Shown: in pieces, positions 13,801-55,138 of the stretch
Numbering within the stretch: position 1 is the first letter of the stretch
Layout: every line of letters starts with the position of its first letter
DNA from: Hydrogenophilus sp.
GTDB lineage: Bacteria > Pseudomonadota > Gammaproteobacteria > Burkholderiales > Thiobacillaceae
Length of the DNA stretch: 64,000 nucleotides
Assembly (NCBI GenBank): GCA_020725195.1
Contig: DYFL01000002.1
Span: 1-64,000 of the forward strand
Direction: 5' to 3'
Made by a program: the position numbers and the translations under genes
The notes under the pieces: generated by a model
Seen by the model: only the letters and a program-made list of their open reading frames with translations
Databases searched by the model: none
What the model was told of the DNA's origin: nothing

Positions 13801-14037
13801 CTAGTACGCCAACCCATAAGTTCCGCTATGTTCGACACGCCCCGCATCGCCGATTGCTTTGTGGTTACGGCCGCCGCCTCGCGGCTTAACCTGCCTGGCA
13901 GGCAGGTTAGCCTGCACCGAAACTGCGTTTTCGCTCATCCTCGCCATAGCTACGGCTATGGCTGCGGTTCGCTTCGCGCACTCGGCGCGCAGATGCGCGT
14001 CTCGGCATGTACGCAAACTTGTGGGTCGGCGCACTAG
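13801..14037. mobile_element. MITE-like element, copy A (237 bp)
   Basis: About 98% identical to 54444-54680. Both ends are CTAG, and the terminal inverted repeats begin CTAGTACGCCAACCC (22 bp; the right end of this copy has three mismatches). Inside are a palindrome with 10-bp arms (13887-13909) and a second dyad, GCCATAGC-TACG-GCTATGGC. It has no coding capacity for a transposase. CTAG ends with a TA duplication are typical of IS630/Tc1-mariner targets, so a non-autonomous IS630-type element is likely. The rest of the 429-bp gap around it (13697-14125) holds only short GC dyads. Confidence 0.85.
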
Positions 14038-17766: not shown

Positions 17767-18306
17767 TCAGCGGTGCTTCTGGTAGGTGCCGACGAGCTCG
17801 CCGTGGGCGAGGACGTGCCCCTGCATCGCCCGCTCCAGGGCGGCCTTGGTGGGCTTGCCGAGGTCGGGCAGGACCACGTCCAGGGCGTAGAGTTTGTGGA
17901 AGTAGCGGTGGCGCCCGATGGGCGGGCAGGGGCCGCCGTAGCCGGTGCGGCCCCAGTCGTTCACGCCCTCCAGGGCGCCGGGCGGCAGGCCCTTGACCCC
18001 CTCGGCCAGGCCCTGGGTGGTGGGCGGCAGGTTGTAGAGCACCCAGTGCACCCAGGTCATGCGCGGGGCGGCGGGGTCGGGGGCGTCGGGGTCGTCCACG
18101 ATGAGGACCAGGCTCTTGGCCCCCGCGGGCGTGCCCGACCAGGCGAGCGGCGGCGAGCGGTCCTGGCCGTCGCAGGTGTGCCTGGCGGGGATGGGGCCGT
18201 TGTGTGCGAAGGCGCTCGATGTGATCTGCATGACGCTTCCCTCCTCGGCCGAATGGGCAGGCCCGATCAGTGCGCAGCAGGCCAGCCATGCTAGGAAGCG
18301 GTTCAT
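17767..18306 (-). CDS. YbhB/YbcL-family (Raf-kinase-inhibitor-like, PEBP) protein, exported
   Basis: A 179-residue protein with a Sec signal peptide (cleavage probably after AHS-A near residue 20). The PEBP fold is marked by DGQDRSPPLAWSG, LIVDDPDAP, WVHWVLYNLPP and the anion-binding GYGGPCPPIGRHRYFH. The bacterial proteins are periplasmic or cytoplasmic and their ligand is unclear. It is a single gene with 110 bp before the next feature on the strand. Confidence 0.85.
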   Translation of the reverse strand: MNRFLAWLACCALIGPAHSAEEGSVMQITSSAFAHNGPIPARHTCDGQDRSPPLAWSGTPAGAKSLVLIVDDPDAPDPAAPRMTWVHWVLYNLPPTTQGLAEGVKGLPPGALEGVNDWGRTGYGGPCPPIGRHRYFHKLYALDVVLPDLGKPTKAALERAMQGHVLAHGELVGTYQKHR

Positions 18307-51367: not shown

Positions 51368-53230
51368 ATGAGCGACTTCGCCGGTATGGAAGAGCTGCTG
51401 CAGGATTTCCTGATGGAGGCGGGGGAGCTGCTTTCCCAGGTGGACAACAAGCTGGTGGAGCTGGAGAAGCGCCAGGACGACAAGGCGCTGCTCAACGACA
51501 TCTTCCGGGGCTTCCACACCATCAAGGGCGGTGCCGGCTTTCTGAACGTCGACCACCTGGTCGCGCTCTGCCACCGCACCGAGAACCTGTTCGACAAGCT
51601 GCGCAATTCCGAGCTCGCGCTGACCCCGGAGCTGATGGACGTCATCCTGGCCGCCACGGCCACCGTGCGGGACATGTTCACCGAGCTGGCGAGCCAGGTG
51701 CAGCCCCAGCCCGCCGACCCCGCCATCATCGCCAACCTCGAGGCCGCGCTGGCGGGTCAGGCCCTCGAAGCGGCGCCCGCCGCCGCGTCCCGCACCGCAC
51801 CGGCGCCCGCCCCCGCCCCGGCCGCAGAAGGGGCCGACGATCTCAACTGGGCGGCACTGCATGCCGCCCTGACCGGCGCCCCCGCGCCGCGGCCGGCCCC
51901 CCATACAGAGCCCTCCGAGGCGGCGGCCGGGGCGCCGGCGGCCGCCCCCAGGGCCGCGCCGGCCCTCCACGAAGGCGCGGGCGCGCCCCGTGCCGCCGCG
52001 GCCGCCCCGCCCCCGCAGCCGCTGCAGAAGGAGACCACCATCCGCGTCGACACGGTGCGGCTGGACCAGGTGCTCAACCTGTCGGGCGAGATCGGCCTGA
52101 CCAAGAACCGCATCGCCAACCTGAAGTCCCACATCCTGCACGGCCGCACCGACGCGGACACCCTCAAGTCCCTGGACACGGCGGTCAACCAGTTGGACCT
52201 CCTGGTCTCCGACCTGCAGAACGCGGTGATGAAGACCCGGATGCAGCCCATCGGGCGGCTGTTCCAGAAGTATCCCCGTCTCGCCCGCGACCTCGCCCGG
52301 CAGCTCGGCAAGGACGTCGAGCTGGTGCTCTCCGGCGAGGAGACCGAGCTCGACAAGACCATGATCGAGGACCTCAACGACCCGCTGGTGCACCTGGTGC
52401 GCAATGCCGTGGACCACGGCATCGAGTCGGTCGAGGAGCGGCAGGCCGCGAACAAGCCCGAGAAGTCCATCGTGTCGCTGTCGGCCAGCCAGATGGGCGA
52501 CCACATCTACATCGAGATCTCCGACGACGGCAAGGGCATGCGCCCGGACGTCATCCGCCGCAAGGCGGTGGAAAAGGGCATCCTCGACGAGGAGGCCGCC
52601 AACGCCCTGGACGACCGCCAGAGCCTGCACCTGATCTTCATGCCCGGCTTCTCCACCAAGGACCAGATCAGCAACATCTCCGGCCGCGGCGTGGGCATGG
52701 ACGTGGTGAAGACCAACATCGCCAAGCTCAACGGCAAGATCGACGTGGTCTCCGTGCCGGGCCAGGGGAGCACCTTCACCATCTCCCTGCCGCTCACCCT
52801 GGCGATCCTGCCCGTACTGGTCGTCAGCCTCAACGACCAGTCCTTCGCCGTGCCGCTCTCCATGGTGCGCGAGATCATCCCGATGAAGCCCGACGAGGTC
52901 CAGCGCGTCTCCGGCCGCGCCACCATGGTGGTCCGCGACGAGGTGCTGCCGGTGCGTTCGCTGGCCACCCTGCTCGGCTGGGAGGCCAGGAAGAAACCGG
53001 CCTACGGCGTGCTGATGCAGTCCACCAACAGCACCTTCATCCTGGCCGTGGACGGCTTCGTCGGCCGCGACGACGTGGTGATCAAGCCCCTGGAGGACAT
53101 CAAGCCCAAGGGCATCTCGGGGGCCACGCTCTCGGGCGACGGCTCCATCGTGCTGGTGCTGGACATGGAAGAGCTGCTGACCGCCGTGCCCACCGACACC
53201 CCAGGCAGCCTATTCACCCGCACCGCATGA
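51368..53230 (+). CDS. cheA: Chemotaxis histidine kinase CheA, without a P2 domain
   Basis: A 620-residue kinase. P1 (about 1-110) has phospho-acceptor H50 (FHTIKGGAGF). A Pro/Ala-rich linker (about 135-220) replaces the CheY-binding P2 domain. P3 (RVDTVRLDQVLNLSGEIGLTKNRI), the P4 ATPase (HLVRNAVDHGIE, DDGKGM, GRGVGMDVV) and the P5 CheW-like domain follow. It is the fifth protein gene after the sigma-28 promoter counted from cheV, and its stop overlaps the EAL/HDOD gene by 4 bp. Confidence 0.94.
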   Translation: MSDFAGMEELLQDFLMEAGELLSQVDNKLVELEKRQDDKALLNDIFRGFHTIKGGAGFLNVDHLVALCHRTENLFDKLRNSELALTPELMDVILAATATVRDMFTELASQVQPQPADPAIIANLEAALAGQALEAAPAAASRTAPAPAPAPAAEGADDLNWAALHAALTGAPAPRPAPHTEPSEAAAGAPAAAPRAAPALHEGAGAPRAAAAAPPPQPLQKETTIRVDTVRLDQVLNLSGEIGLTKNRIANLKSHILHGRTDADTLKSLDTAVNQLDLLVSDLQNAVMKTRMQPIGRLFQKYPRLARDLARQLGKDVELVLSGEETELDKTMIEDLNDPLVHLVRNAVDHGIESVEERQAANKPEKSIVSLSASQMGDHIYIEISDDGKGMRPDVIRRKAVEKGILDEEAANALDDRQSLHLIFMPGFSTKDQISNISGRGVGMDVVKTNIAKLNGKIDVVSVPGQGSTFTISLPLTLAILPVLVVSLNDQSFAVPLSMVREIIPMKPDEVQRVSGRATMVVRDEVLPVRSLATLLGWEARKKPAYGVLMQSTNSTFILAVDGFVGRDDVVIKPLEDIKPKGISGATLSGDGSIVLVLDMEELLTAVPTDTPGSLFTRTA

Positions 53231-54447
53231 CCACAGAGGCCTTTCTCGCCCGGCAGCCCATCGTCGACGGCCAGCACAAGCTTCTCGGCTACGAGCTGCT
53301 GTTCCGGCCCTCGCACCACTCGGGGGCGGCGCAGGTCGAGAGCAATCCCTCGGCCACGCTCCACGTCATCACCAACACCCTGTGCGACATGGGCACGAAG
53401 TGGCTGCTGCAGGGGCGGCTCGCCTTCATCAACGTGGAATACGAATTGTTGATGGGCGAGTTCGTCAGCCTCCTGCCCAGCGACAAGGTCGTCCTCGAGA
53501 TCCTGGAGACGGTGGAGCCCACCCCGGAATTGCTGACCCGCCTGGATGAATTGAAAAAGGCCGGCTACCGGTTCGCCCTGGACAAGTTCAGGCCGCGGCC
53601 GGGCATCGAAAAGCTGCTGCCCTACGCCAGCTACCTCAAGTTCGACATGCTCTCCCAGCCCGCCGAGCAGACGGCAGCCCTGGTCAGGAAACTGAACAAG
53701 CTGCCGGCCCGGCTGATCGCCGAGAGGGTGGAGTCCATCGCGAGCTTCAACGCGTGCCGCGACCTGGGCTTCCACTACTTCCAGGGCTACTACTTCGCGC
53801 ATCCCGAGCACCTCACCGCCCGGGTCATGAACCCGGCCCAGGTCACCGTCCTGCAGCTGCTGGACAAGGTGCGCGGCGATGCGGACATCAAGGAGATCGA
53901 GGACCTGTTCAAGCAGGACGTCGCGCTCACCTTCAAGCTGCTGCGCTACATCAACTCGGCGGGCTTCGGCCTGTCCTGCGAGGTCCAGTCCATCCGCCAC
54001 GCCGTGTCCATCCTCGGCATGAAGCCGCTGTACCGCTGGCTCACCCTGCTGCTCGCCACCGCGGGCACCGGGGCCGTCTCGCCCGCCCAGGCCCGGACGG
54101 CCATCACCCGCGGCCGCCTGTGCGAACTGCTGGGCAGGCATTTCATGAAGAAGGCCGATCAGGACAACCTCTTCATCGCGGGGGTCTTCTCCCTGCTGGA
54201 CGCCATGCTGGACACCCCCATGGAAGAGATCCTCGATCGCCTGATCATCCCCGAGAGCATCTCCGACGCCCTGCTCTCCCGCACCGGGGCCTACGGCCCC
54301 ATCCTGGCGCTGGCGGAGGCCTGCGAGACGCACAATCTCGAGCGCATCGACGAGCTGACGGAGGCGCTGATGCTGACCCCGGACGAGGTCAACAGGGACC
54401 ACCTCGACGCCCTGGCCTGGGTCGAGCAACTCGGCCTGGAGGCCTAG
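53227..54447 (+). CDS. EAL-HDOD (YuxH-like) signalling protein
   Basis: A 406-residue protein with an N-terminal EAL-like domain (about 5-195) and a C-terminal HDOD domain (about 200-390; DVALTFKLLRYINSAGFGL). The EAL signature is ELL (residues 23-25), and the metal-binding acids are mostly missing, so phosphodiesterase activity is unlikely and c-di-GMP binding is doubtful. Its ATG overlaps cheA (ATGA), so it is translated with the chemotaxis proteins. Its TAG stop is formed by the left end of MITE copy B. Confidence 0.88.
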   Translation: MTTEAFLARQPIVDGQHKLLGYELLFRPSHHSGAAQVESNPSATLHVITNTLCDMGTKWLLQGRLAFINVEYELLMGEFVSLLPSDKVVLEILETVEPTPELLTRLDELKKAGYRFALDKFRPRPGIEKLLPYASYLKFDMLSQPAEQTAALVRKLNKLPARLIAERVESIASFNACRDLGFHYFQGYYFAHPEHLTARVMNPAQVTVLQLLDKVRGDADIKEIEDLFKQDVALTFKLLRYINSAGFGLSCEVQSIRHAVSILGMKPLYRWLTLLLATAGTGAVSPAQARTAITRGRLCELLGRHFMKKADQDNLFIAGVFSLLDAMLDTPMEEILDRLIIPESISDALLSRTGAYGPILALAEACETHNLERIDELTEALMLTPDEVNRDHLDALAWVEQLGLEA

Positions 54448-54680
54448 TACGCCAACCCATAAGTTCCGCTATGTTCGACACGCCCCGCATCGCCGATTGC
54501 TTTGTGGTTACGGCCGCCGCCTCGCGGCTTAACCTGCCTGGCAGGCAGGTTAGCCTGCACCGAAACTGCGTTTTCGCTCATCCTCGCCATAGCTACGGCT
54601 ATGGCTGCGGTTCGCTTCGCGCACTCGGCGCGCGGATGCGCGTCTCGGCATGTACGCAAACTTATGGGTTGGCGTACTAG
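54444..54680. mobile_element. MITE-like element, copy B (237 bp), with perfect terminal repeats
   Basis: Both ends CTAG, with 22-bp perfect terminal inverted repeats (54444-54465 / 54659-54680). It differs from copy A by about four bases in 237. It sits between two convergent genes: its left CTAG provides the TAG of the EAL-HDOD gene, and its right CTAG, on the other strand, the TAG of sixA. The arrangement fits insertion of an IS630-type element into one CTAG with TA duplication, which left both reading frames intact. Confidence 0.9.
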
Positions 54681-55138
54681 AGCATCTCCGGCGTGATCGC
54701 CGCCTTCAGCACGGCCCGCTCCTCTGCCCCCCGCCGGCGGCCGATCCAGACCACCCCTCCCTTCCGGATGCCGAAATCCTGCTCCACCCCGAAGAGCAGC
54801 CGGCTCGCCACCCGCCCCAGCGCGGGCTGATGCCCGACCAGCAGGACGGTGCCCGGCGCATCGGGCCAGCCGGCTGCCTCCAGCGCCTGGGCCGCGTCGC
54901 CGCCGGGTGCGATGGCCGCGACGGTCTCGAAGGGTCGCCCCAGGGGGGCGGCGGTCTGCTGCGCCCGCACGGCCGGGCTGACCAGGATGCGGGCATCCCG
55001 GCCGAGGCGCGCCTCCAGCCAGCGGGCCACCGCCTCCGCCTGCCTGCGGCCCTTGGCGGTGAGGGCGCGTGCCGCATCCGGCACCCCGTCCTCGGCCTCG
55101 GCATGGCGCCAGAGGATCAGCTGCATCGGCCCGCTCAC
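54677..55138 (-). CDS. sixA: Phosphohistidine phosphatase SixA
   Basis: A 153-residue histidine phosphatase. The RHG-like motif is WRHAEAEDG (H12), with ARILVSPAVRAQQTA-type and VLLVGHQPALGRVASRLL blocks. SixA removes phosphate from histidine of PTS or phosphorelay proteins. It overlaps the AIM24 gene by 4 bp. Its stop codon lies in the end of MITE copy B. Confidence 0.88.
   Translation of the reverse strand: MSGPMQLILWRHAEAEDGVPDAARALTAKGRRQAEAVARWLEARLGRDARILVSPAVRAQQTAAPLGRPFETVAAIAPGGDAAQALEAAGWPDAPGTVLLVGHQPALGRVASRLLFGVEQDFGIRKGGVVWIGRRRGAEERAVLKAAITPEML

Follow-up and report, generated by a model that had tools for sequence, protein, structure and literature searches.

How a mobile element can settle between two convergent genes without harm to either is the question raised by a 237-nt repeat at 54444..54680 of a 64,000-nt stretch of Hydrogenophilus sp. 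DNA (contig DYFL01000002.1, positions 1 to 64,000; the window). A gene encoding a 406-aa EAL-HDOD protein (53227..54447, + strand; Pfam EAL and HDOD) ends at its left edge, and a gene encoding a 153-aa sixA-like histidine phosphatase (54677..55138, − strand; Pfam His_Phos_1) ends at its right edge. The stop codons of both are formed by the terminal CTAGs of the repeat, namely TAG at 54445..54447 on the + strand by the left CTAG and TAG at 54677..54679 on the − strand by the right CTAG, whose CTA is read on the other strand. This base-level reading of both ends and both stops had been given in an initial annotation of the sequence and proved exact, as the coordinates of the open reading frames (ORFs) agree with it. 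The reading that we favour, at a probability of roughly 0.8, is that the repeat is a non-autonomous miniature inverted-repeat transposable element (MITE) of the IS630/Tc1-mariner type that inserted into the TA of a CTAG, here at the shared stop of two convergent genes.

Anatomy and copies of the element

The element is bounded by 22-nt terminal inverted repeats (54444..54465 on the + strand and 54659..54680 on the − strand) that are 100% complementary to each other and include the CTAGs at 54444-54447 and 54677-54680. If the TA is the duplicated target, the element proper spans 54447-54677. No ORF of at least 80 aa was found inside the 237 nt. A total of 14 full-length copies, 98–100% identical, were found in the genome of the window (G000; 2.84 Mb in 108 contigs, 70% G+C). 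CTAG is present at both ends of 13 of these and the fourteenth has CTGG on the left, giving 27 CTAG ends out of 28. The flanks of the copies are unrelated and diverge immediately beyond CTAG. As the same 237 nt recur 14 times with flanks that part right outside CTAG, the arrangement is not due to chance, and the term MITE used in the initial annotation is borne out by the multi-copy state, the inverted repeats, the lack of a gene of its own and the CTAG ends. A second copy within the window (13801..14037, + strand) differs from it at three bases of the right repeat and at one internal base. Partial copies in the same genome comprise one of 106 nt (contig C51) and two short pieces with one end each (C28 and C35). 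The target word itself is strongly depleted: the 64-kb window holds 23 CTAGs, four of them at the termini of this MITE, whereas 100 shuffled versions averaged 97.8.

The element was also searched for in a set of 61 genomes. A form of about 168 nt was found in two other genera of the family (G011 and G019 of genus g12; G015 and G031 of genus g6), and a more diverged copy in G047, a member of another family. Out of 32 loci, 28 copies were kept while L132, L141, L152 and L153 were left out as incomplete or too diverged. CTAG was observed on both sides in 19 of the 28 copies and at 44 of the 56 ends. The copies of G031 (L142-L150) have the same MITE core with GTGTCTC instead of GTACGCC as the outermost bases at both ends; this terminal change is symmetric, and one end of L148 reads GTGGCTC. 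The MITE was found neither in plasmids nor in phages, and a search of viral contigs with the exact 19-base end pattern returned no match.

Host stop codons at the insertion sites

Insertion with duplication of TA would convert CTAG into C-TA-[G...C]-TA-G and rebuild CTAG at both ends, so that a TAG stop within CTAG would be kept on either strand. At the present locus the original CTAG would have been the shared stop of the EAL-HDOD and sixA genes, overlapping by two bases, in an empty site reading ...GAGGCCTAGAGCATC.... Since such a CTAG is common to both stops, one insertion would have kept both of them and pushed the genes 233 bp apart. A silent insertion of this kind had been proposed in the initial annotation, which had also named homologous proteins running further as the observation that would speak against it. 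The junction was compared in 32 loci (L086, L087 and L161-L190), of which the window is one and L086/L087 gave the same values as L162/L163. The sixA gene adjoins the EAL-HDOD gene in 22 of these, convergently every time, and the remaining ten are without it; removal of the window and of duplicates left 19 relatives. In all 19 the EAL-HDOD protein ends at query residue 404–406 with at most one codon more, and the sixA protein ends at query residue 152–153 with at most two codons more. Stop-to-stop gaps lay between −9 and 184 bp (median 21), two of the pairs overlapping, and the element was missing from all 19 junctions as judged by blastn. In one relative (G067, L168) the stops of the two genes overlap in a palindromic TTAA with a gap of −4. 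Joining the flanks in the window would give the same gap, and this geometry matches that proposed for CTAG. The shared protein ends and the close or overlapping stops thus support an insertion that was probably silent for both proteins at a site where a single CTAG would formerly have served both stops. Among named homologues, those closest to the EAL-HDOD gene, at 67–68%, are from a Thiobacillus metagenome-assembled genome and Parasulfuritortus cantonensis, which makes Thiobacillaceae the probable family.

The location of copies relative to genes was judged after joining the flanks computationally, using a codon classifier seeded on codon-position G+C that reached 97.6% on its own training windows. 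Eight of the 14 copies in the genome of the window coincide with the TAG stop of a gene called in this way, that of the present locus with two, while five are intergenic and one, the copy at 13801, is inside an ORF that is low-scoring and was called after joining. The seven genes with a single such stop all match Pfam families. They encode a bactofilin, an NADH-quinone oxidoreductase/antiporter subunit (NuoN-like), DnaJ, a saccharopine-dehydrogenase-family enzyme, a phosphoribosyltransferase with a double zinc ribbon (ComF-like), a polysaccharide pyruvyl transferase and a hybrid histidine kinase. Of the partial copies, that on C51 lies on the stop of a DUF5610 gene and the piece on C35 on the stop of a lipB-like gene. 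The names NuoN, ComF and lipB, as well as MltB and GlcF below, were read by us from the Pfam matches. The background comprised 464 kb, namely the window together with 20 segments of 20 kb each, chosen from longer contigs of which some harbour copies. Apart from the ends of this MITE, these 464 kb hold 97 CTAGs, including a few ends of a second MITE family; 29 were at stops, 28 inside genes and 40 intergenic. In the relatives, where the classifier was the one trained on the genome of the window with its higher G+C, ten of the 28 copies were at a stop, 16 intergenic and two inside genes, compared with none, six and 21, respectively, of the 27 other CTAGs in the same loci. Two further gene callers were dropped. 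One, based on codon log-odds, placed 1/14 copies and 17/98 background CTAGs at gene ends; the other, a classifier that took the longest ORFs as its seeds, had an accuracy of about 75% (9/14 versus 51/97, p = 0.57).

The outermost in-frame codons of the element ends are TAG TAC GCC AAC CCA TAA, which places a spare TAA five codons in. In one copy of a relative (L129, G011) the left CTAG now reads CCAG, the host TAG has become CAG and the stop is lost; the next in-frame stop there is the TAA five codons into the element.

Double stops were observed at three sites in total, those being the present locus, a copy in G031 and a stack of two elements in the genome of the window. At the G031 site (L149), the CTAG occupied by the element terminates two convergent genes, one for an SLT_2 transglycosylase (MltB-like) and the other for a CCG/4Fe-4S protein (GlcF-like). 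The stack (L013) has a second, unrelated CTAG-bordered MITE on the left and the first MITE on the right. The gene to the left, encoding a BPSS1780-family membrane protein (NCBIfam NF041043, 169.6 bits), stops in the left CTAG of the second MITE, and a histidine kinase gene on the other strand stops in the right CTAG of the first; removal of both elements would leave one CTAG common to both genes. As 2 of the 97 background CTAGs are double stops according to the same gene caller, a few such cases among 42 copies are not astonishing. The second MITE is about 150–210 nt long with ends CTAGGAGCCTGTCGGACTT and was located at L013:1293-1504, L227 ~18083-18235, L239 17790-17979 and L153 ~63-223. It adjoins the first MITE in L013 with one CTAG in common, and the same junction is found in L139 and L153 (G019) and in L146 (G031). 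Its two other copies in the sampled stretches begin at the stops of genes for a molybdopterin oxidoreductase (L227) and a DUF2905 protein (L239). Rebuilt CTAGs would still be available as targets and would thereby account for end-to-end stacking, and the anatomy of these junctions indicates that they seem to be reused in this way.

Candidate transposase and alternative explanations

The MITE would be moved by a transposase acting in trans, and IS630 is its most likely source, an assignment in which we have good confidence. In order to examine the layout of such elements, 37 IS630-type loci of relatives and plasmids were scanned for inverted ends at TA. An inverted end pair with CTAG on both sides was found in 13 of these, 12 of them distinct (L308 equals L333), although most of the 13 have another TA pair a few bases away with an equal or nearly equal score, which makes the exact edge uncertain. 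The sixth plasmid element (L337) has two CTAGs 1163 bases apart and fell below the cut-off, and many of the remaining loci, which gave no clear pair, are fragments. Of the IS630 mover named in the initial annotation, the CTAG/TA layout was thus recovered in 12 IS630-type loci, while no transposase with matching ends was found. In the genome of the window, contigs C61, C76 and C84 (L275, L279 and L281) end 48–55 bases into an IS630-like end of an insertion sequence (IS) starting at CTAG. The IS edge reads CTAG-TGTAGTGTCTCATAAATGG at two of these sites and CTAG-TA-TAGTGTCTCATAAATGG at one, where it lies directly against a MITE. Among 399 genomes of the order only one other, G166, has this IS end within three mismatches (26/28 bases), and there an IS630 transposase (NCBIfam NF033545, 242.6 bits) runs up to it. 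The 57-base IS end at C84 had no match in plasmids. The pattern GTGTCTCATAAATGGC was found in eight stretches of viral contigs, all of which were set aside as unlike this IS end beyond the pattern. As for sequence similarity, ATAAGTTTC...GCTATG, a subterminal part of the MITE, is also present in an IS630 end of P. veronii, and in a shuffling test of end similarity with 42 comparisons the form from G031 gave p values of 0.001 and 0.004 with two IS ends from Pseudomonas.

Several observations weigh against the proposed IS630-type insertion at a shared CTAG. An exact empty site was not found, as the searches returned no genome from the same genus in which it could be read. CTAG is altered on one or both sides in 9 of the 28 copies of relatives. 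No IS630 transposase was found in the genome of the window, an assembly of 108 contigs that breaks at IS ends, nor did the search suggested in the initial annotation, for an IS630 transposase with MITE-like ends GTACGCCAACCC, return any there. An autonomous element with ends CTAGTACGCCRACCC was not seen in 90 genomes of the family, and for the lone CTAGTACGCC ends in G011 (C30) and G077 (C11) the 5–5.5 kb retrieved contained no partner end. Two IS630-type loci (L326 and L327) have good inverted ends at TA sites other than CTAG, and the form of the element found in the window's own genome is only weakly similar to IS630 ends, with a best p of 0.058 among the 42 comparisons. One alternative is an IS5-type MITE with a four-base duplication of CTAG or a similar word, as in MITEPsy1, in which case the stops would have been kept by duplication of the whole CTAG and not by the G and C at the ends of the element. 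Duplication of CTAG yields a sequence identical to that from duplication of TA, no IS630 partner with matching ends was found, and MITEPsy1 is entered as "IS5?" in a table of its source (PMC3189936). Against this, IS630 elements from the same family and from plasmids show the C-TA-G...C-TA-G layout as well, and the termini of a relative share the ATAAGTTTC and GCTATG-TTC pieces with an IS630 end. We regard an IS5-type origin as unlikely.

Two further alternatives retain the insertion and differ in what it did to the genes or how it found them. One or both genes could once have been longer and been cut to a TAG made by the element, an explanation that can draw on the lack of an exact empty site and on the fact that the opposing evidence comes from relatives of other genera. 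As both proteins end at the same residue within 0–2 codons in all 19 relatives, truncation of either is nevertheless highly improbable. A mobiliser that actively prefers stop codons or gene 3' ends would account for the excess of copies at stops by targeting and not by survival. Such an excess is apparent when all CTAGs are counted, both in the genome of the window (8/14 versus 29/97, one-sided p = 0.046) and in the relatives (10/28 versus 0/27, p = 0.0004). It fades when gene interiors are set aside, to 8/13 versus 29/69 (p = 0.16) in the former and to 10/26 versus 0/6 (p = 0.08, with a small comparison set) in the latter, and background CTAGs in the genome of the window are already common at stops. 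Insertion at CTAG combined with loss of intragenic insertions explains the bias, so that targeting of stops is unneeded and in our judgement quite improbable. An IS630-type insertion into CTAG, silent for both genes at the present locus, accounts best for the data.

Related elements and internal features

An IS630 composite transposon is said, in the title of a 1991 report by Tenzen and Ohtsubo, to prefer TA in CTAG. The annotated transposase stop is the TAG of the flanking CTAG in four of six plasmid IS630 elements (L305, L336, L338 and L339; not L304 and L337); in IS870, too, the target supplies the stop codon of the transposase. These IS870-type elements use the same trick turned inward, in that their own gene borrows the stop of the target, whereas with the MITE it is the host genes that keep theirs. 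Members of the IS630 family (IS630, ISY100, ISPsy32-like and IS870-like) insert at TA, as the MITE would, with CTAG at both ends in the 12 distinct loci described above. Unlike the MITE they encode a transposase, and no IS630 end examined shares the outermost bases of the MITE. The IS630 family inserts at TA and duplicates it (PMC2170065). MITEPsy1 of Pseudomonas syringae is a 100-nt element, possibly of IS5, with a 4-bp duplication of CTAG or YTAA (PMC3189936). On that account it is like the present MITE in being short, having terminal repeats and using CTAG, and unlike it in its length of 100 nt, its possible IS5 origin and its other ends. YTAA on both sides was observed in none of the 14 copies in the genome of the window and in none of the 28 copies of relatives. 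MITEAba12 is related to ISAba12 and has 9-bp duplications without identifiable sequence, one copy being fused to the 3' end of a truncated gene (PMC6382973). It is non-autonomous, IS-derived and multi-copy like the present MITE and differs from it in the 9-bp duplications.

No report of MITEs regenerating host stop codons was recognised in literature represented mostly by titles and the starts of abstracts. As far as our searches show, the MITE family is new, as is the repeated presence of its copies at host stops, with double stops at three sites. The element offers a clean case of a site-specific mobile element spreading harmlessly through a compact genome by means of a target word that doubles as a stop codon, is rare and would be rebuilt upon insertion; a single palindromic CTAG can terminate two convergent genes and survive splitting. 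CTAG is a scarce word and most intragenic insertions would be lost, so that TAG stops lying within it would make up a large part of the harmless targets. Speculatively, CTAG-targeting elements of the family might use TAG stops as a standing, self-renewing refuge in which the stop is kept, two CTAGs are rebuilt for stacking and a spare TAA is at hand, the termini perhaps being selected as translation-silent; we offer this as a tentative idea to which we give rather low odds.

Internally, the element contains a 69-nt insertion at 54505..54573 on the + strand (MAFFT columns 62-130), the exact ends of which are uncertain by some bases. The insertion is missing in the 168-nt form of the relatives and includes a hairpin repeat that occurs elsewhere in the genome of the window, also alone. 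The element strand folds strongly compared with shuffles (z = −8.5), as inverted repeats together with an internal hairpin would lead one to expect. Intrinsic terminators and sigma-70 promoters were not found in 54300-54850, and an Rfam search returned no family above the gathering score, P37 reaching 25.5 bits versus 50. This weak P37 match, at 25.5 bits, belongs to the hairpin repeat, which at 54511-54573 of the window consists of GGCTTAAC, a variable palindrome and GTTAGCCTGC, with further examples at L154:961-1172 and L062:1553-1775. The repeat is present in many genomes of this bacterial family with stems that differ between copies, and in G034 it forms a 69-nt tandem array.
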